This document shows positions 1,844 through 12,600 of a stretch of 24,770 nucleotides of DNA, piece by piece (within the stretch, counting starts at the first letter, position 1; each line of letters starts with the position of its first letter). This DNA comes from a virus: positions 1 through 24,770 of IMG/VR virus record IMGVR_UViG_3300017987_000345. The stretch is one strand, 5' to 3'. Under the pieces are notes generated by a model. That model made no database searches, had not been told where the DNA came from, and was given only the letters and a program-made list of their open reading frames with translations. Both the position numbers and the translations under genes were made by a program.

Positions 1844-4800
1844 TCATCTTCTGCTCAATAAAGGTCTATAGCGTAAACGAAAAACATCATAAGCGGTTAA
1901 ACCAGTAATCGAATAATCAGAATAAGCTGAACCAATAGTGCCTCCAGTTTTGGTATCAGTCAAAATAAACAAATATAACTCATTTTCAGGCGGCAAGCTA
2001 ATGATAAACCAATGCACATACTGGACAACAGCCGGATAAGGGGCATCAGGTGTTGGGTTTGAGTATTGAAAGAAATAAGGGTCAATCACACCAGTTCCTT
2101 TGTCTACAGTTAGGGCATCACTTAGGCCCCTTTGAGGAACTGGAACTGAATAAGAACCAGAAGGTGTTGTAACTCTTAATTTTAAGCCTTCATAGGTATG
2201 AGTGTAAGCAGTATAAGTAGAACTTAAGGGCGGAGCACCTGTAGTCGGCCTTGAATATATGACAGATGCTTGCTTAATTGATTCATATAAATCTAAACGT
2301 CTTAAACCAGTAGGCATTGCTGAATCAACGACAGCGACAGCAGTCATATCGAGGTCAGCATCATAATAATTTCCATTTAAAGGTAATTTTGCAGATATTG
2401 AAGATATCTCAATATCAGTATAACCAACCTGAGATGAAAGAGGAAAAGGAAGAGATACCCAACTATTGCCCCCCGTACCAATAGAATGCATTATGCCTTT
2501 TTGAGAAATTTGTTTAATAACAGCTTCATCAATGTCCAGACCAAGACCTTGATATGGGTCATATTCATAATAAATCTGCAGGCGATCACTTGCAGTGGGA
2601 GTATAAGTTGAAACAAACTCAAAGATTATTGTATCAGCTGCACCTGGAGCAACAGGAAAAGCAACACTAACAGCCCCGGTACCTTCCCCATAATTTACTG
2701 TTATCTGTCTACGAAGTCCATTAACATAGGCATAATTTTTTTCTCCTAATAAGTCTTCATAAACTCCCATTTTATGTATAATCTCCCCAGATGAAGATGT
2801 AACAGTATAATTACTTGCACCTGTACCTGCCATTGATTCAGTTGCCGCCGCATAGGATTCAACTATGCCTTTTGCATGTCTTTCTATTGTAAGGCTTTTA
2901 ATTCTAAGAGTAGCTTCATATTTAATTACTTGATTTGTGGTAAAAACCTGCCCAAAAATTACAGTGTAACTTCCAACTGCTCTTGTAACACTACTAGGAT
3001 GTATCTGAACTGGATTTAGTGGATCAGTATAATTCCAAAATCTATAGAAACCTGTAATAGCAAATCCGGCTAATGTAGATGGGAAGTTATAAGTAGCTGT
3101 CCCGTTCCCTTGCATAAAACCATTATAAACTCGCAAAGCTCCTTTCTGCGTACTAAAATAACTTGTTTGATTTGCAGCAGGATTAATATCTTCAATATAA
3201 TCCTGATTACCTCCTATAGAAGGGAAGGCTGATAGAGTTGTCTCAAAAAGACCTACAGTCCGCTTTTCAAGTTCTATATAACTAAAACCCATTCTTTCAT
3301 TCTGGGCTATATTCGCATTAAATGTATAGTAAAGATGATTTGGTACATGTCTAAAACCATCTCCTTGGTTTCCTACTACATGAGTCCATATCAGATAAAA
3401 AACTGCGTCAATGCGTCCTCCGGCTATATAATTAGGGTCAGCTACATCAATTGTCGCCCAAATTTGGTAATTACTAACGACATGCCAGCCTAAAGTTGCA
3501 ACCGTATTTCCTGTAGATCTCCAAACTAAGACTACTCCTGTGCCCGGAATTGTATTCGGAGCAATCGAAGTTATTGTTATATTTTTTAGGACTGTCTGGT
3601 AAGCAAAAGTAATATAAGCATTTGTAAAAGTGCTATCGGCATTTTCAAGAAATGAAAATGGAATAGTTTGAGTGATAGTTTTATCTGTAAACATTCGTCT
3701 AAAACCATCAGGAGCTGCAAAATCATAAATACCTGGTTGATCCACAGCACTTATGCCGTCAACCTGAAGTAATTTTGTACCCTTCTGTGCCCCAACATAA
3801 TCATTGCCCCAAGAATTTTGATTTTGTCCTCGAAGAAGTTGATCAAAATTTAAATTCACCATTTCAGAAAGACTACATTCACAATCTAAAACCAAATGCC
3901 GAAGATCTATGATATCCTTTTCATTAATTTCGTCATTAAACATACCATCAGGTCTATCACTCTTAGTGCTATCTCCTACACTAACTCCTGACCCATTCGG
4001 GTTAGTGTGAACATTATAAGCAGTTGAGTTTCTGCGATGTACTCCTAAAACAGGAATTGCATAAATATAACCGTCTACTGTTCCAAGAACACTGCGAGAA
4101 GTTGAGTCACCATTCCCTGCTCTAAAAAGACCATGATCATTTGAAGTAGAACCTTGATTTGTATAGGTATAAGAAGTATCTCCAGTATTTGGACCACGTG
4201 CTTTTACAGTTGGGTCATCAACACCTTCTGGATAATTAGTAAAGTTAACACCAGAAACAGTTCTAAGTCGAAATTGTAGTTGAACTCTCTGAGTAGTTTC
4301 AACACCTACAGACGGATCTTCCATATCATCTGTCAATTGAGTTCCACGATATTGAGTATTACCATACTTATAGATCTTGTCAACTGCCGGCTTATTAACT
4401 GTTGAATTAGGTCTAATTAATACTCTATATACTTCTAGGAAAATAAGATCTTGTCTTTGACCAGCAGCTGGCGGAGTCGGCATCTCTACCGAAATCCAAC
4501 CATCTGTAGTAAAATTACCGCCCTCGACTGAACTATCGATAAGATCTAAAACCCAACCATTTACAATTGCTCTGAAATTCTGAATAATAAATTCATTTTC
4601 ACCAAGAAATGCAGAAGGAAAAACTATATCAGTTGTCCCTTTATAGAGTTCATCAAAACCAGATAAACGAAAGTTTAAAACACCAGACTGTAGTTTAATA
4701 TTTGCCCGTCGAGATTGAACATCTCGAATATCCGACATTAAAGTTAATTCACTATCCAAAGGCGGTTTGCCCTTGTCCCAGACAACATCGAGAAAATTCC

Positions 4801-4852
4801 GATCATCTGGTTGTAATGTCCTGCTTACTTGACTTCCATAATCGAGAGCCAT
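1844..4852 (-). CDS. Large fibre / baseplate appendage structural protein (1002 aa)
   Basis: A 1002-residue virion protein with no transmembrane segment. The start ATG has GAGGT 5 nt upstream. Residues 25-42 hold KPPLDSELTLMSDI, matching the left-edge protein (RPVLDAELNEWQDV). Residues about 130-200 hold DLIFLEVY and DPSVGVETTQR, which match DYVYIEYY and DPVIGIETACR there, so the two share an N-terminal module of roughly 180 residues, with an insertion in this copy. Residues 308-321 read NEINEKDIIDLRHL-like sequence, a pattern I associate with large phage appendage proteins. The remainder is rich in G, T, S, Y and V and looks like serial beta-sandwich domains, including a YVNG-type repeat near residue 770. 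Role inferred: long appendage or baseplate-periphery protein next to the wedge genes. Receptor contact is possible but not shown. Confidence 0.85.
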   Translation of the reverse strand: MALDYGSQVSRTLQPDDRNFLDVVWDKGKPPLDSELTLMSDIRDVQSRRANIKLQSGVLNFRLSGFDELYKGTTDIVFPSAFLGENEFIIQNFRAIVNGWVLDLIDSSVEGGNFTTDGWISVEMPTPPAAGQRQDLIFLEVYRVLIRPNSTVNKPAVDKIYKYGNTQYRGTQLTDDMEDPSVGVETTQRVQLQFRLRTVSGVNFTNYPEGVDDPTVKARGPNTGDTSYTYTNQGSTSNDHGLFRAGNGDSTSRSVLGTVDGYIYAIPVLGVHRRNSTAYNVHTNPNGSGVSVGDSTKSDRPDGMFNDEINEKDIIDLRHLVLDCECSLSEMVNLNFDQLLRGQNQNSWGNDYVGAQKGTKLLQVDGISAVDQPGIYDFAAPDGFRRMFTDKTITQTIPFSFLENADSTFTNAYITFAYQTVLKNITITSIAPNTIPGTGVVLVWRSTGNTVATLGWHVVSNYQIWATIDVADPNYIAGGRIDAVFYLIWTHVVGNQGDGFRHVPNHLYYTFNANIAQNERMGFSYIELEKRTVGLFETTLSAFPSIGGNQDYIEDINPAANQTSYFSTQKGALRVYNGFMQGNGTATYNFPSTLAGFAITGFYRFWNYTDPLNPVQIHPSSVTRAVGSYTVIFGQVFTTNQVIKYEATLRIKSLTIERHAKGIVESYAAATESMAGTGASNYTVTSSSGEIIHKMGVYEDLLGEKNYAYVNGLRRQITVNYGEGTGAVSVAFPVAPGAADTIIFEFVSTYTPTASDRLQIYYEYDPYQGLGLDIDEAVIKQISQKGIMHSIGTGGNSWVSLPFPLSSQVGYTDIEISSISAKLPLNGNYYDADLDMTAVAVVDSAMPTGLRRLDLYESIKQASVIYSRPTTGAPPLSSTYTAYTHTYEGLKLRVTTPSGSYSVPVPQRGLSDALTVDKGTGVIDPYFFQYSNPTPDAPYPAVVQYVHWFIISLPPENELYLFILTDTKTGGTIGSAYSDYSITGLTAYDVFRLRYRPLLSRR

Positions 4853-4864
4853 TTTTTACCTCTT

Positions 4865-5065
4865 TTAATAAGCTGTTACATTTACTCCAGTTAAAAGATA
4901 ATTTACTTTATAATCAAGCAAATATCCAGATGAATTTCGCCAATTAGATCCAGTAGTTTTATTATAAAAATCTCTCATATCAGCCCCAGAAACTATAGCA
5001 TCTATCTGAGTTTGGGGCCAACCACCTTGAGTTCCACTTGCTGTACCATCTTGTGGTAAATTCAT
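4865..5065 (-). CDS. Small protein of unknown function (66 aa)
   Basis: A 66-residue ORF (MNLPQDGTASGTQGGW...) with a textbook ribosome-binding site GGAGGT 4 nt before the ATG. It starts 2 nt after the stop of the 79-aa gene and ends 12 nt before the next start, so it fills the operon with no slack, which is the main reason to call it real. The N-terminal 15 residues are G/T/Q rich and look flexible; residues 20-66 have mixed polar and aromatic content (DFYNKTTGSNW, YLLDYKVNYLL). No signal peptide, membrane segment or known motif is seen. Position between the wedge and appendage genes suggests a small virion or assembly factor, but that is inference only. Confidence 0.7.
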   Translation of the reverse strand: MNLPQDGTASGTQGGWPQTQIDAIVSGADMRDFYNKTTGSNWRNSSGYLLDYKVNYLLTGVNVTAY

Positions 5066-5067
5066 TA

Positions 5068-5307
5068 CTACCTCCAGGTTGATTCAACCATTCGTCTTTG
5101 ATCAATATGAAAATCTACATAATCTCGATGAACAGTTAATGAAAGAGCCTTAAGATAAGGAACTTCCACAAAAGAATTATTTTCTTTCTGTAATAGTTTA
5201 ACATCTCTAGGGTCGAGATTCCCATCTCTATCTATCTTAAACAAAATCTTATATTCTTGTGCTTCTCTATTTGTTAATTTGCAGTTCTTAACTTTAAGAG
5301 CATTCAT
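5068..5307 (-). CDS. Small protein of unknown function (79 aa)
   Basis: A 79-residue charged protein (MNALKVKNCKLTNREAQ...). It starts 4 nt after the HNH gene stop and ends 2 nt before the next start. The nearest Shine-Dalgarno is AGGAG about 12 nt upstream of the ATG, a longer spacing than its neighbours, inside the end of the HNH gene. Residues 26-35 (DRDGNLDPRD) resemble an acidic loop but do not fit the EF-hand spacing, so I do not call calcium binding. No known family is recognised. It could be a structural or assembly protein, or a passenger that came with the endonuclease. Confidence 0.65.
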   Translation of the reverse strand: MNALKVKNCKLTNREAQEYKILFKIDRDGNLDPRDVKLLQKENNSFVEVPYLKALSLTVHRDYVDFHIDQRRMVESTWR

Positions 5308-5311
5308 GTGG

Positions 5312-6898
5312 TTATGTCGCTCCTGTTAATAACTGAGATTGTTCAAGATGTTGTTTACAAATATCTGGTTTATTTTCAAACTTACCATGACAAGTATTGC
5401 AGTAACAAATAAGATTATTTAGATCATTTGCTTGAATATAACTCATGTTTTCTCCTGGTTTGTAACCAAACTTTCTAAACGGAGTAATATGATGGACTGA
5501 AGGATTACAACCTAAATTAGATTTTGTCTTACCACATCCAGGATTCTGACAAGTGCAATTATCCCTTTCTAAAGCCTTCTGTTGCTGTTTACCCCAATTA
5601 GGTCCACGAGAAATAGGTTTCGCTTCTTCACTCTCTACATAACATTTATGACAATAAAGATAAGTAGCGTACTTGCTTCTATTTTGCATATTTATAAATT
5701 GTCCACAATTAAAGCATGCCCTGAAATACATGTTATAAAGAAAAAGTAGCGGATGTTTTGGGGCTCTAAATTCTTCAAAACATTCAAAACAATACTTATG
5801 GTGAATATGTAGAGACTCAACAAGTGTTTCTTTTCCACAACGGGGACACTGGTCTTTAAAAAATATTTCTCCATTTATTTCAATTTCGAGTTCTTTATGG
5901 CGGCTTTCCTTTCCTTTCCTTAATCCTTCTTCATAGCGTTCTCTATATTTCTCTTCTGCGCACTTGTCACAATAAGATTTACTTGAACATTTCTGATAGA
6001 CTAAAATATCATCTCCACAACGTTTACATTTCCTAATTTTAGGTTCATCTAAAGGTTGCCAATTCTCCAAAGTTAACTTATCGATGATCTCTTGATTTTG
6101 CATCGGATTATTTCCATGTTTGAGAACATCCTGTGCTGTTTCTTTACGAGTTTTAAAAGGAATACCTTCCCTTCTAAAAATTTCGTCTGGAATAAATTTA
6201 AACTCTTTGATTAACATCGATTTTGTCCAGTTCTGTTTAGTATAGAGATCTATAATATAATCAATAAAATCTTGATGTTTTTTATTCACAGCAAAACGGC
6301 CTTCTGCTTCTTTATAGAGATGACGAACATAACTCGTTTTTCCATTCCAAAAACAATCTTCGACAAAACACTCAATTACTCTATAATTTCTATCACTATC
6401 TGTTGGAATAGCAGTAAGTTTTCGTTTACCAAGATACTTCCAAAAAGTATTTTTATCTAAACCTGGAAACTCCTTTTTAAATTGCTCTATCGTATAATTA
6501 TGGAGTTTTAAATGGCGGGGTGTTATATGTTTTTGTCTTGAATAGATTTCATCATTACATTCATTAAAACACAAAGGACAAACAATGTATTCTCCATAAT
6601 CCCAACTTTTTTTACATGAATAACAATATCCTCGATCCCAAGGATCTTTTGTAAATTCTTTTAATTCATCACATCCTTTGCATGTACGAAAATGTGAATC
6701 TTTTTTTGTTTTGCAATTTGAACAATAAAAAACTCTACCCCTCGGAGATTTTTCTAAATAATAGATTTCTTTACAAATAGCGCAAGTTCTAGGTTTAAGA
6801 GATCTTTGTTTTTTACAGATATCACAAACAAAAATTCCAGTCTTTCTCTCTTGGACTTCAAAAACTTGCTCACAGTAATAGCAAATTCTTTTAGTCAT
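5312..6898 (-). CDS. HNH endonuclease with multiple zinc-knuckle motifs (free-standing homing-type)
   Basis: A 528-residue protein from the ATG at 6898. A TTG 15 nt further upstream (6913) is also in frame, but the ATG overlaps the TGA of the previous gene as ATGA, typical translational coupling, and I prefer it. The C-terminal HNH domain has CTCQNPGC, HH at about 469-470, NDLNNL at about 491-496, and CYCNTCH ending at H504, which together give the His-Asn-His metal finger. The preceding 430 residues carry more than a dozen CxxC or CxxxxC pairs (CYYC, CDIC, CAIC, CSNC, CKGC, CYSC, CPLC, CKRC, CDKC, CPRC, CFEC, CFNC, CHKC), implying serial zinc ribbons. A segment around TPRHLKLHNYTIEQFKKEFPG resembles the Ros/MucR-like finger seen in many phage HNH enzymes. 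Likely role: site-specific DNA cleavage and self-spread of the gene. It is not a virion part although it sits inside the tail operon. Confidence 0.88.
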   Translation of the reverse strand: MTKRICYYCEQVFEVQERKTGIFVCDICKKQRSLKPRTCAICKEIYYLEKSPRGRVFYCSNCKTKKDSHFRTCKGCDELKEFTKDPWDRGYCYSCKKSWDYGEYIVCPLCFNECNDEIYSRQKHITPRHLKLHNYTIEQFKKEFPGLDKNTFWKYLGKRKLTAIPTDSDRNYRVIECFVEDCFWNGKTSYVRHLYKEAEGRFAVNKKHQDFIDYIIDLYTKQNWTKSMLIKEFKFIPDEIFRREGIPFKTRKETAQDVLKHGNNPMQNQEIIDKLTLENWQPLDEPKIRKCKRCGDDILVYQKCSSKSYCDKCAEEKYRERYEEGLRKGKESRHKELEIEINGEIFFKDQCPRCGKETLVESLHIHHKYCFECFEEFRAPKHPLLFLYNMYFRACFNCGQFINMQNRSKYATYLYCHKCYVESEEAKPISRGPNWGKQQQKALERDNCTCQNPGCGKTKSNLGCNPSVHHITPFRKFGYKPGENMSYIQANDLNNLICYCNTCHGKFENKPDICKQHLEQSQLLTGAT

Positions 6899-7503
6899 GT
6901 TGTTATACGCCAAACAAGCGTTAAGGTGCCAGTTGCCGGAACATTTATCACAGAAAATCGCCTAAGATTGAAAAACACATCTGTATTCTTCCCACCATTT
7001 GCAAAGGCAACTGGGGTCGAAATCGCGTCTCCACCTACCAGTCCCATTTCGCGAAGCGCCGCAGGCCCAGCCTCTCCCTGATTAAAAATTGTCACATAAT
7101 CAACTACATTAGTTGGCGTTGTCGTAACAGCTCCGGAACCATCTATAAAATTTACCGAAGAGAATGTTTTTCTAGCTATTTCACTAATTAGGCCATGTTC
7201 TGCTCCTGTTGGGCTAGGAGGCGGGTCTGGCCAGGTAGCATCGCCGCTGCCCACAGCCAAAAACTTTATGCCCCAAACTGGATCATTCTTATCTGATAGC
7301 AATCTCGCTACTAAAATACTTGCATCATTTATAACCAGATTACCAAAATCAAACTTTTCTTCGGACCCATCAATATGTCGCAGAGTAGCCCAGACATGTC
7401 CCGTGATTTGTTTAGGTACTCTATATTCCTCATTAAATCTCATTTCAGATCCTCTAAATTGATCTACATTTCTCCTGATTTTATAAGTATCTTCGAATCG
7501 CAT
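6895..7503 (-). CDS. Tail fibre / baseplate appendage-type structural protein (202 aa)
   Basis: A 202-residue soluble protein with the layout of small phage appendage proteins: ATLRHIDGSEEKFDFGNLVINDAS, then a glycine-rich AVGSGDATW segment, then E-I-A-RKTF, an ALREMGLVGG segment, and a final beta region ending in LTLVWRITT. Two starts are possible. ATG 7503 gives 202 residues but has no clear ribosome-binding site. ATG 7443 (182 residues, MRFNEEYRVPK) has GAGGA 6 nt upstream and fits the family pattern better. The two N-termini look alike (MRFEDTY and MRFNEEY). The gene lies after the gpI-like wedge gene and before the HNH gene, with its stop in an ATGA overlap. Function inferred from type and position only. 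Confidence 0.72.
   Translation of the reverse strand: MRFEDTYKIRRNVDQFRGSEMRFNEEYRVPKQITGHVWATLRHIDGSEEKFDFGNLVINDASILVARLLSDKNDPVWGIKFLAVGSGDATWPDPPPSPTGAEHGLISEIARKTFSSVNFIDGSGAVTTTPTNVVDYVTIFNQGEAGPAALREMGLVGGDAISTPVAFANGGKNTDVFFNLRRFSVINVPATGTLTLVWRITT
7450..7454 (-). promoter_or_regulatory. Shine-Dalgarno for the internal ATG at 7443
   Basis: The minus strand reads AGAGGA with a 6-nt spacer to the ATG at 7443. The longer ATG at 7503 has only a weak AAAG-type sequence upstream. This site makes the 182-residue form a serious candidate for the real protein. Confidence 0.5.
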
Positions 7504-9646: not shown

Positions 9647-12600
9647 TAACTAGACTGCGCTCTCAAAGTCAAGTTTAGTTCACCAAGAGCCAAATATTCA
9701 AAGTCAACTGCTTGTATATCATAAGCACCTGTTTCATTATAAACATAATACGTTACTTTATAAGAGTGGGTACTAGGCAAAGCGCCATCTAAAGTACTCA
9801 CTAATAAACGACCGTCACCCTTAATGAAACCTTGACCCGCAACTCGTCCAACATCAGCCTCTGCATCTACCATAGTTAAAGGTTCATTATCTTCAAATAT
9901 TTCTACATGTCTAAAAATATAACCAGGGCCAGTTCCAATTTGCTTTTTTCGCCCCCCTCCATCAATCGTATTATATTGTAGAACATCTACAGACGTAATA
10001 TAAACATCAACATGATCCAAATAATACCACTGCCAAGTGGGTGCTACTTCCTCTCTGAAAACTCTTGAGTCATTTGAACGAACAAGTTTTGTTAAACCAG
10101 GAGATAATACAGTATAAATAACACCTGATGTATTTGCAATAATCGCTATAATATCTCCTTGGTGCACAGAAAAACCAATAGGCGAATTAGCCATATAACG
10201 TGAAATTCTTGTACGTATAGTTTGATCTACAGTTACTTCGTCAGCTGAACTATCAATTACTGCTATCGCTTCAATAGTGGTATCATTTTTCTGAGCAGTC
10301 TTAACCAAAACATCTGCAGTAACATGTTTCATTTCATTAACTTCTTCCTGTACTTCCCCTAATAAAGAATTATGCAGATATTTAACAACAACATTTTCAC
10401 CACTTTGATAACTGACTTTTACTAAATCACCACTCCCAATTGAACCACTCGCAAGACGATTAATATAAGATGCTGTTTCATAAGTACCAATAGTAATTGA
10501 ATAATCTACATCTTTAGTATATGTAATAGTCTGTGCTTCATTTTTAACAACAATTGTTGATTCTATAATTCCTACCTTTGCTAATTCGACCTCCTGTTCT
10601 CCAGATAAAACTAAATCCTCTGTTGTCGATTGTAAAGAATCGACAGGCTTGCTTCCATATTTAAAAATTTCAATAGAATCTGAGGCTTGTGTTGAATCTC
10701 CAAGCAAAAGTGGATCTTCTTCTCTATAGACATTATAATTATCATTAAGGTCCCCAGAAACTTCCCCTGTTACATCGGTGACCTCAATAATTGGTTGATT
10801 ATTAAAGATATGTGTGACTACTGGTACATATTTATATGTAACTTCTATTGTATCTAGACTATCAAGGCCTATAGCAATATTTGCTGGGTTCGTTTCATCT
10901 AAATCTATGATTACCCCATCTACAATGGAATAACCAGTTAAATCATAATCATTTAAACGAGTAAGATTCCGAACTTTTGTCACTTCAAAAATAGGAGTTT
11001 CTACAGTAACTTCTGTATTTAAAACTCGAAATTGAAACATTGCAACATTTTCAACAGAAGCTAACTCATCTTGTATTTCCGGATATTGAAAAGCAAATCT
11101 TTCGGTTATCTCATTTATTACTTCACCTTGAATATAAACATCTACCTTCCCTCCTATATGCTTTAAACGAACTTCATCCCAGTCTCTCTCCATATAAGTA
11201 TTACCAGCATCTATAACCTGGGAACGCACAACATTTGGTACAGCTAAAGCAGTTGCGAGATAACCACCTTTTGTTCCAGTATCAAGAGAAACAAAAGCTA
11301 ACATTGCACGTGTTGCCAAACTAACATTACTCTCTTGATCTGTGCCAAAAGCAAAAGCAAGATCATTTGTTACACCTGCCGGTTCATTTACACCACTCAC
11401 AATATTCACAATAGTATTCGCTGAAACATTCCCAGAAGCTCCAGATTCTTGAGCTTCTACCGGAAATGTGACTTCGTAACGATTTGTTCTTGGATTAAAA
11501 AATAAGGAAAGAGAAGAAACACGAATCCGAGCCTCTGATAAAGCTACAAATAAAATTGCCGGAGTATTTGTTGAAGAATCTGGAGTCGTTGAGAATAATG
11601 CTCCTTGATTAACAACAATATCTTTTGTTGGAGCTGCTGATGATAACGTATAAATAGTTAAAGATCCCCGAGAAGCTGTTGCTTCTTTACGCTCTACATT
11701 GAAGTCTCCAGCTAATTTAGTAAATGCCTCATCAATTAATTGTTGTGTGGCTTCATCGGTCTCTAAAAACAAAGCTTGTTTTAAAGCTTGTTTTTGGGGA
11801 GAATCTTCTACCGGGTCACTAATACCGTCACCATCTGCGTCATCAAAAGCAACGAGGGTCAAAAAGCTTTGAGATCTATGAACAAAATCTTGAACAATAT
11901 AAAGTCTTTCAAATTCTTCAGAAGGTGGGTCAATCATCACATCTCGGGTGACTGTGCCTGGCTTTAAATCAACATTTGGATTTGTTTCTTGAATTCTAGT
12001 AATCTGACTTATGGAAACATCATAAGAAGTCCTAGGCACTAAATCTTTAATTGAAGTATCAATTAACTGAGGTAATCCACTGACTTCTCCGCTATAAATA
12101 CTCTCCACTTCTTCATTTAATACTGGATCAAAACCCACAGCAGTTGCTACAAAATATCTTCTAACACCCGCTTGAAGCGACTCCCCTGTAGTTGGATCTA
12201 AAGTCTGGGTAAAAGCATAATAGATCCGAGTTTGTATCTGATATGTATCTATAACCTTTTTAATAGTCCCAGCCTGTTCTATCTCTTCAGTTAATAGAGT
12301 TTCTATCTCTTCCGATTTATATGGATTTGAAATATAATCCACATTTAAACGTGTATAACCAGTAACGCCTCCTCCTGGATCAGTACTTCCATAAAGATTA
12401 TAACCCACGACTTGAGGCTCAGGATTCTTAACCCAAGAGGCTGTAACTGAATCTTTCTTAGATTCAGTTGAAATACCAGTTGGAGCAGTAACAACCAAAG
12501 AAAGCTCATCGTCACCTAAAAGAGTAATTGTTATAGTATCTGGTAGACTTTCTTCCATAGAGACATTTAAAGCAGTAACAGAAAAGGTATTCTCTCCTGA

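Follow-up and report, generated by a model that had tools for sequence, protein, structure and literature searches.

The gene at positions 5312-6898 on the minus strand of the window, the 24,770-bp virus record analyzed here at its full length, is probably a homing endonuclease gene of the HNH class, free-standing and not part of an intron; two conserved tail genes border the variable slot that it occupies, in a phage with relatives among the huge phages. Sequence and a predicted model together support the reading of its 528-amino-acid (aa) product as an HNH endonuclease with an exceptional predicted zinc array. The homing reading was built on the anatomy of the protein, its catalytic residues, the empty slots of other phages, the other nucleases found at the slot, and the diverged tracts beside two of them, with the HNH fold assigned by sequence and model. 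In the proposed mechanism, the modules would bind zinc and, like beads on a string, read the slot DNA of phages without the gene. The C-terminal HNH finger would then nick or cut at the slot, and the co-infecting phage would acquire the gene, with part of the adjoining tail sequence, when the damage is repaired from the carrier genome.

All large open reading frames (ORFs) of the window lie on the minus strand, and those scanned include a baseplate-wedge protein. The first-pass annotation had placed a 528-residue ORF at 5312-6898; the ORF was found there, but on the minus strand, since the plus strand is riddled with stops. Its coding part spans 5315-6898 and its stop codon 5312-5314. The start is the ATG at 6898, and an in-frame TTG upstream would give a protein of 533 aa instead. 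The start overlaps the stop of the upstream tail gene t202 (202 aa, 6895-7503, minus strand) in an ATGA at 6895-6898 of the same strand, as had been claimed and as we could read directly. This gene, which matches phrog_5417 and resembles gp190 of Bacillus phage G, forms one border of the slot. On the other side, the nuclease stop lies 4 nt ahead of a 79-aa ORF (5068-5307), which is followed by a 66-aa ORF (4865-5065) and then by the 1002-aa tail gene t1002 (1844-4852), the opposite border, all read as ORFs on the minus strand. The two small ORFs, the second and third genes of the slot segment, had no relatives among loci L001-L168 other than those in copies of the same phage. Both t202 and t1002 are called tail genes on the basis of where they lie in the cluster and of their homologues in phages, their best PHROG matches carrying no functional name. 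Their frames were intact on both sides of the nuclease gene, and an Rfam scan of the window gave zero matches, indicating that no known intron is present there; the nuclease thus has an intergenic gene of its own, as a free-standing homing endonuclease should. Mobile-element repeats sought in 5000-7100 gave short, weak pairs only.

Relatives of t202 and the wedge gene occur in genomes of 309 to 497 kb, namely those of Bacillus phage G (497 kb), an uncultured phage (485 kb) and Tunturi_5 (309 kb), and a huge phage is hence the probable source of the fragment. The G+C content of t202 (6895-7400) was about 46-47%, as opposed to 30-36% in its neighbors and the nuclease gene. We rejected this rise as a sign of import, because t202 is similarly GC-rich in Bacillus phage G and in locus L134: its excess over its own locus was +6.7 here, +8.2 in phage G and +6.1 in L134, compared to a mean of +0.8 over the 35 loci compared. 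Given the similar t202 of phage G, the richness probably reflects the composition of the encoded protein.

The HNH nuclease finger occupies residues 431-508 (5375-5608, minus strand) and was located by PHROGs, alignment and model. The PHROGs search returned HNH endonuclease families, with 8446 (E-value of 1.8e-15, residues 430-514), 1271, 119 and others among them. A profile built from residues 336-528 and 14 relatives matched the HNH domain of HfmIscB (1e-9) and HNHE of phage GVE2 (5h0m, 1.7e-7) in the PDB. The model of the last 193 residues had a mean pLDDT of 76, and six of the seven ten-residue blocks in residues 436-505 reached 90-98, with 69 in the remaining one. Structural comparisons gave a Z score of 8.5 with EcoKMcrA (6ghc; rmsd 2.7, 83 aligned residues), 8.5 with Cap5 (8fmf; rmsd 3.4, 93 aligned) and 7.7 with GVE2 HNHE (5h0m; rmsd 5.6, 84 aligned), values that near 8 may by themselves reflect a common arrangement. 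The best Foldseek match of this model was weak (E-value of 0.11), and the PDB profile hits therefore weigh more for the HNH fold, on which they and the Z scores to HNH structures agree.

H469, H470, N495 and H504, together with C450, C455, C500 and C503, were invariant in all 17 proteins of one family alignment (A5), so that a full His-Asn-His set sits in the predicted zinc-bound finger. The first-pass annotation had described a complete C-terminal HNH finger and named loss of its catalytic residues as the observation that would speak against it; no such loss was seen. Pfam was less responsive. No model reached its cut-off anywhere in the 528-aa protein, which counts against the homing reading, and the C-terminal part scored 14.4 bits against the required 21 for HNH_2 and 9.3 against 21.4 for HNH. 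Four of the five related proteins scanned were above the Pfam HNH cut-off, and the fifth was short by 0.3 bit. In NCBIfam, IscB alone was matched, with an E-value of 0.46.

The protein contains 38 cysteines and 14 CxxC motifs, 13 before the HNH finger and one, at residue 500, inside it. Composition shuffles gave a mean of 2.6 and a maximum of 10, and none of 20,000 reached 14; the more than a dozen CxxC motifs reported earlier ahead of the finger therefore stand far above chance. Twelve of them pair into six CX2C-X15-17-CX2C modules with putative zinc binding, and the thirteenth, at residue 107, opens a half module in which histidines follow. When a cysteine-free spacer was required (CX2C-X14-18-CX2C), five modules remained, compared to a shuffle mean of 0.018 and maximum of 2; the sixth paired module (residues 291-313) has an additional cysteine in its spacer. 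On the minus strand, module 1, with a spacer of 15 residues, lies at 6815-6883 (residues 6-28), module 2 at 6713-6784 (39-62), module 3 at 6614-6682 (73-95), the half module at 6503-6580 (107-132), module 5 at 5960-6028 (291-313), module 6 at 5780-5848 (351-373) and module 7 at 5642-5716 (395-419). The starts of the first four, the half module included, are 33-34 residues apart. Pairwise identity among the seven was 5-14 of 32-34 positions, cysteines counted, which indicates that they are not fresh copies. The four cysteines of modules 6 and 7 were invariant in all seven proteins of a second alignment (A6), comprising the 528-aa protein and six chosen relatives.

The half module, which begins with CPLC, belongs to the segment (residues 107-145) that had been called Ros/MucR-like. 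This assignment found no support in Pfam, PHROGs or BLASTP: ROS_MUCR (PF05443) was not matched by residues 100-165 at E-values up to 10 or by the whole protein up to 1, and a BLASTP comparison with a ROS_MUCR-bearing protein from another phage produced no alignment. The prediction for residues 145-285 was mostly helix, at low to middling confidence, without a meaningful family match (best E-value of 0.079). For the helical stretch at residues 205-275 (6074-6286, minus strand), modeled with similar confidence, a helix-turn-helix role is a guess, and a NUMOD-like reading of residues 250-280, prompted by a motif, was dropped as no profile supported it. The whole-protein model had a mean pLDDT of 63, its N-terminal half being too weak for judging finger folds, and its best PDB match by Foldseek was weak (E-value of 0.034); phmmer against the PDB gave weak RING-finger and other matches only (best 0.029).

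Putative nucleic-acid-binding modules make up much of the protein, which would also suit a protein that regulates the tail operon, has retained a nuclease fold and binds operon DNA through its array, as I-TevI does on its own operator (PMC2988022). We regard such a role as very improbable, as the catalytic residues are all retained and promoter-like sites in the region of the gene are at chance level (12 versus 11.6 expected). Terminator-like sites there numbered 3 versus 1.2 expected. The chance-level promoter count and the ATGA overlap are consistent with the suggestion of the first-pass annotation that the tail transcript may drive the gene. That the array could recognize a long DNA target, as also suggested there, is a hypothesis.

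We searched for relatives of the protein to judge how unusual the array is. A tblastn search found 15 phage records, 13 of them from haloarchaeal viruses; scans of IMG/VR found 19 loci and, the second time, 57; and the genome collection yielded 228 relatives, the best 80 of which were by title largely from Chloroflexi, with Bacillaceae and haloarchaea in addition. ORFs of 850-980 aa that share this HNH domain are present on many of the Chloroflexi contigs among L169-L248 (e.g., L244 and L203). In halovirus HCTV-5 (L015/L029), two HNH genes directly flank the terminase large subunit gene, one on each side, like a small nuclease-bracketed island.

The CxxC motifs were ranked over 129 distinct ORFs from the 57 IMG/VR loci and 80 of the 228 genomic relatives. 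The 528-aa protein, present as its copy L249, was the richest with 14, followed by 10, 9 and 8, and the median was 3. Longer relatives exist, namely a viral ORF of 535 aa with three CxxC motifs and genomic ORFs of up to 979 aa. One 535-aa viral ORF (L298, 4383-5990) has a radical-SAM-like start followed by an intein-like part, as judged by eye, and the same HNH domain. In the first family set, which some viruses entered twice via two collections, none of 29 ORF rows had CX2C..CX2C with a cysteine-free spacer, and most carried CX2C..CX3C. With cysteine permitted in the spacer, CX2C..CX2C occurred in 10 of 50 viral ORFs of the second set, the 528-aa protein included, and in 0 of 79 genomic ones. 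Eight CX2C..CX3C modules precede the same type of HNH finger in L020 (405 aa), and long arrays are thus not unique to the 528-aa protein. By these sequence counts, its array is long and its finger type is uncommon among HNH relatives.

The slot was then compared across phages. A t202 relative on the locus plus strand was present in 94 locus rows. In 58 of these, t1002 was matched no more than 6 kb downstream of t202, and the other 36 lacked such a match through a contig end, divergence or another gene order. Once two more copies of the contig that is the window's twin were set aside, 56 rows remained and represented 44 distinct loci at 98% identity, the window included. The slot was empty (gap of 6-59 bp) in 23 of the 44 and occupied in 21. 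Comparison with the empty locus of relatives had been proposed in the first-pass annotation, with a gene present in all of them as the adverse outcome; that outcome did not occur, and the relatives with empty alleles are distant. The data support, at the sequence level, the view that the nuclease is an accessory gene of the tail operon. The search for a near relative that lacks the window's own gene found none, and the one other copy seen belongs to the same phage (over 15,848 bp it has one mismatch). Because no close gene-free relative was found, the exact target of the window's nuclease, like its own homing, is something that we infer.

As judged from the ORFs read in each locus and from family or BLAST tests, nuclease genes of three types filled five of the 21 occupied slots: that of the window, HNH genes of PHROG 3106/2255 in L095, L111 and L114, and a nuclease in L139. 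Two of the three types are HNH enzymes from different families. The L139 nuclease (10549-11655) matched resolvase and endonuclease PHROGs, had a resolvase/endonuclease-like C-terminus and showed Pfam ROS_MUCR above the cut-off (6.1e-7). It is the kind of domain combination suspected in the first-pass annotation, but in another phage at the same slot. L102 held a probable nuclease remnant, with 39% identity over 90 aa to the C-terminus of the L114 nuclease.

The remaining 15 occupied slots hold non-nuclease genes, and the slot is therefore a general variable spot. A family of ~290-330 aa without assigned function was found in eight (L112, L116, L117, L118, L120, L121, L124 and L128); no PHROG was matched by L117 at an E-value of 0.01, and L118 had one weak match (0.02). 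PhoH was the sole occupant in L140, where it was tested, and in L006, by resemblance, and is also present in L139. FtsK-like occupants were found in L113 and in L126 (47% identical to that of L113), and L104 (10567-11001) had a 144-aa aspartyl-protease-like gene (gag-asp_proteas, 2.1e-5, below the Pfam cut-off). Small ORFs filled two of the 21. Such a range of occupants, and the two small ORFs that accompany the nuclease gene in the same insert, would also be expected if accessory genes in general landed at the slot, and if ordinary recombination, not its own cutting, had brought the nuclease there as one more passenger. This explanation is unlikely, as nucleases and the remnant account for six of the 21 occupied slots and a diverged tract adjoins two slot nucleases.

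The HNH type of the window was absent from the slot in all 43 other distinct loci (tblastn, E-value of 1e-4), which counts against the homing reading. The same absence argues against a domesticated, immobile HNH protein that is expressed with the tail genes and serves in packaging, replication or the exclusion of competitor phages. The intact frame of the gene and its close spacing to both neighbors (an ATGA overlap upstream, 4 nt downstream) are consistent with that role, and a packaging function is possible for phage HNH proteins (PMC5304195). A weak PHROG match to terminase small subunits (0.0033) over the HNH part likewise points to it and counts against homing. However, none of the seven neighboring proteins scanned matched terminase or replication proteins, and we consider domestication improbable.

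Two close pairs of loci provided further evidence for homing endonucleases at the slot. L109 is empty (gap of 10 bp) and L111 carries 816 bp with an HNH gene, and their flanks are 90% and 87% identical over ~3 kb. L139 and L140 differ by the 1,107-bp nuclease gene in L139; the flanks are 94% identical over the nearest 694 bp and then 83% over 2 kb, and 86% on the other side. The nuclease stop overlaps the start of t1002 in L111 and that of PhoH in L139. In both pairs, the last 100 bp of t202 were diverged compared to the preceding 400 bp, with 69% versus 92% identity in L109/L111 (p of 1e-8) and 79% versus 95% in L139/L140 (p of 3e-6). Over 194 pairs of more than 60% identity, which share members and are not independent, the mean difference was -1.3 points (sd of 5.8). 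A counter-example is L098/L100, both empty, with a milder drop from 89% to 78% (-10.7, p of 0.008). Identity also falls in other places: to 70% at 600-650 bp upstream in L109/L111, and over wide stretches past 700 bp in L139/L140. Downstream of the slot, L109/L111 showed no drop (96-98%, first 100 bp), and L139/L140 scattered (92%, 76%).

The last 16 residues of the t202 protein are identical in L109 and L111 despite the nucleotide changes. The idea that the 3' end is the most conserved part of t202 was rejected, because its last 12 residues rank 53rd among 191 windows. Co-conversion of flanks with marker exclusion (PMC2988022) and resistance of the recipient via replaced target sequence (PMC12724721) have been described for homing. 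Tracts like those at the t202 end would be expected after co-conversion from a diverged donor, or if silent changes had let the sequence escape cutting. The earlier suggestion that the neighboring tail gene is the cleavage target thus gains support by analogy, from the t202 3' divergence beside two other slot nucleases, but not for the gene of the window.

Zinc-finger repeats in phage homing nucleases and the replacement of nuclease classes in tail operons have already been published, as excerpts of PMC10448857 describe. Judged from sequence, this build of the array and the presence of other nucleases at the same slot in related phages appear to be new. A literature search by title and opening of the abstract, with the subscription literature mostly outside, gave no zinc-array HNH enzyme at the t202/t1002 junction among the matches listed. 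At the junction, nucleases of several families, alleles with nothing in the slot, a probably decayed copy and tracts that resemble conversion can be compared over dozens of mostly uncultivated phages, and the 528-aa protein is a predicted natural zinc-array nuclease whose recognition rule is open to experiment. That homing nucleases shape the tail operons of phages is already a published view, which these data strengthen but do not change. As a broader conjecture, to which we give little weight, the junction in the tail operons of huge phages could be a standing target for varied selfish nucleases, which would be mosaics of zinc and helix-turn-helix readers. Forced repair would exchange neighboring tail genes and may shuffle tail parts among huge phages, and the 528-aa protein would be an extreme case, with at least six CX2C..CX2C fingers and an unusually long site.

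Compared to GVE2 HNHE (5h0m), EcoKMcrA (6ghc) and Cap5 (8fmf), the 528-aa protein shares the nuclease fold alone, whereas the partner domains and the biology differ. The zinc-finger HNH enzymes of haloviruses and other phages (HFTV1 gp39, HRTV-28 gp29, HCTV-5 gp104 and L020) share the C-terminal HNH finger. In most of them zinc modules precede it, and two of these align with modules 6 and 7 of the 528-aa protein; a few relatives have helix-turn-helix-like repeats in their place, as judged by eye. However, their fingers are CX2C..CX3C as opposed to CX2C..CX2C, and the relatives of the first set have 185-405 aa, compared to 528 aa here. The highest CxxC count among the other ORFs ranked was 10, compared to 14.

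The nuclease domain of T5orf172 homing endonucleases is GIY-YIG-like. T5orf172 was matched in the 528-aa protein by neither Pfam nor PHROGs, and the protein is thus not a member of this CapR-type group. T5orf172 enzymes have repeated CapR/DUF723/DUF4397 zinc fingers (Barth, Dunham and Seed 2023, PMC10448857), and are described there as selfish phage nucleases near essential genes, often with several zinc-finger domains as beads. The likeness extends to these features, whereas the nuclease domain is another one and the CapR motif is CxxC...CxC, in contrast to HNH and CX2C..CX2C here.

The Mob and Seg enzymes of T4 likewise lie between conserved genes and their flanks are co-converted (PMC2988022). 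They were established by experiment, whereas the 528-aa protein is known from sequence and model. Mob-like proteins have an N-terminal HNH domain and a C-terminal zinc finger (PMC10448857), an order that is reversed in the 528-aa protein. In the homing endonuclease gene (HEG) islands of tail operons, PD-(D/E)XK replaces HNH-3 (PMC10448857). These islands lie in other phages and at another place, the t202/t1002 junction being unnamed in the excerpts of that paper, but they resemble the slot in that differing nucleases swap at one site beside tail genes.
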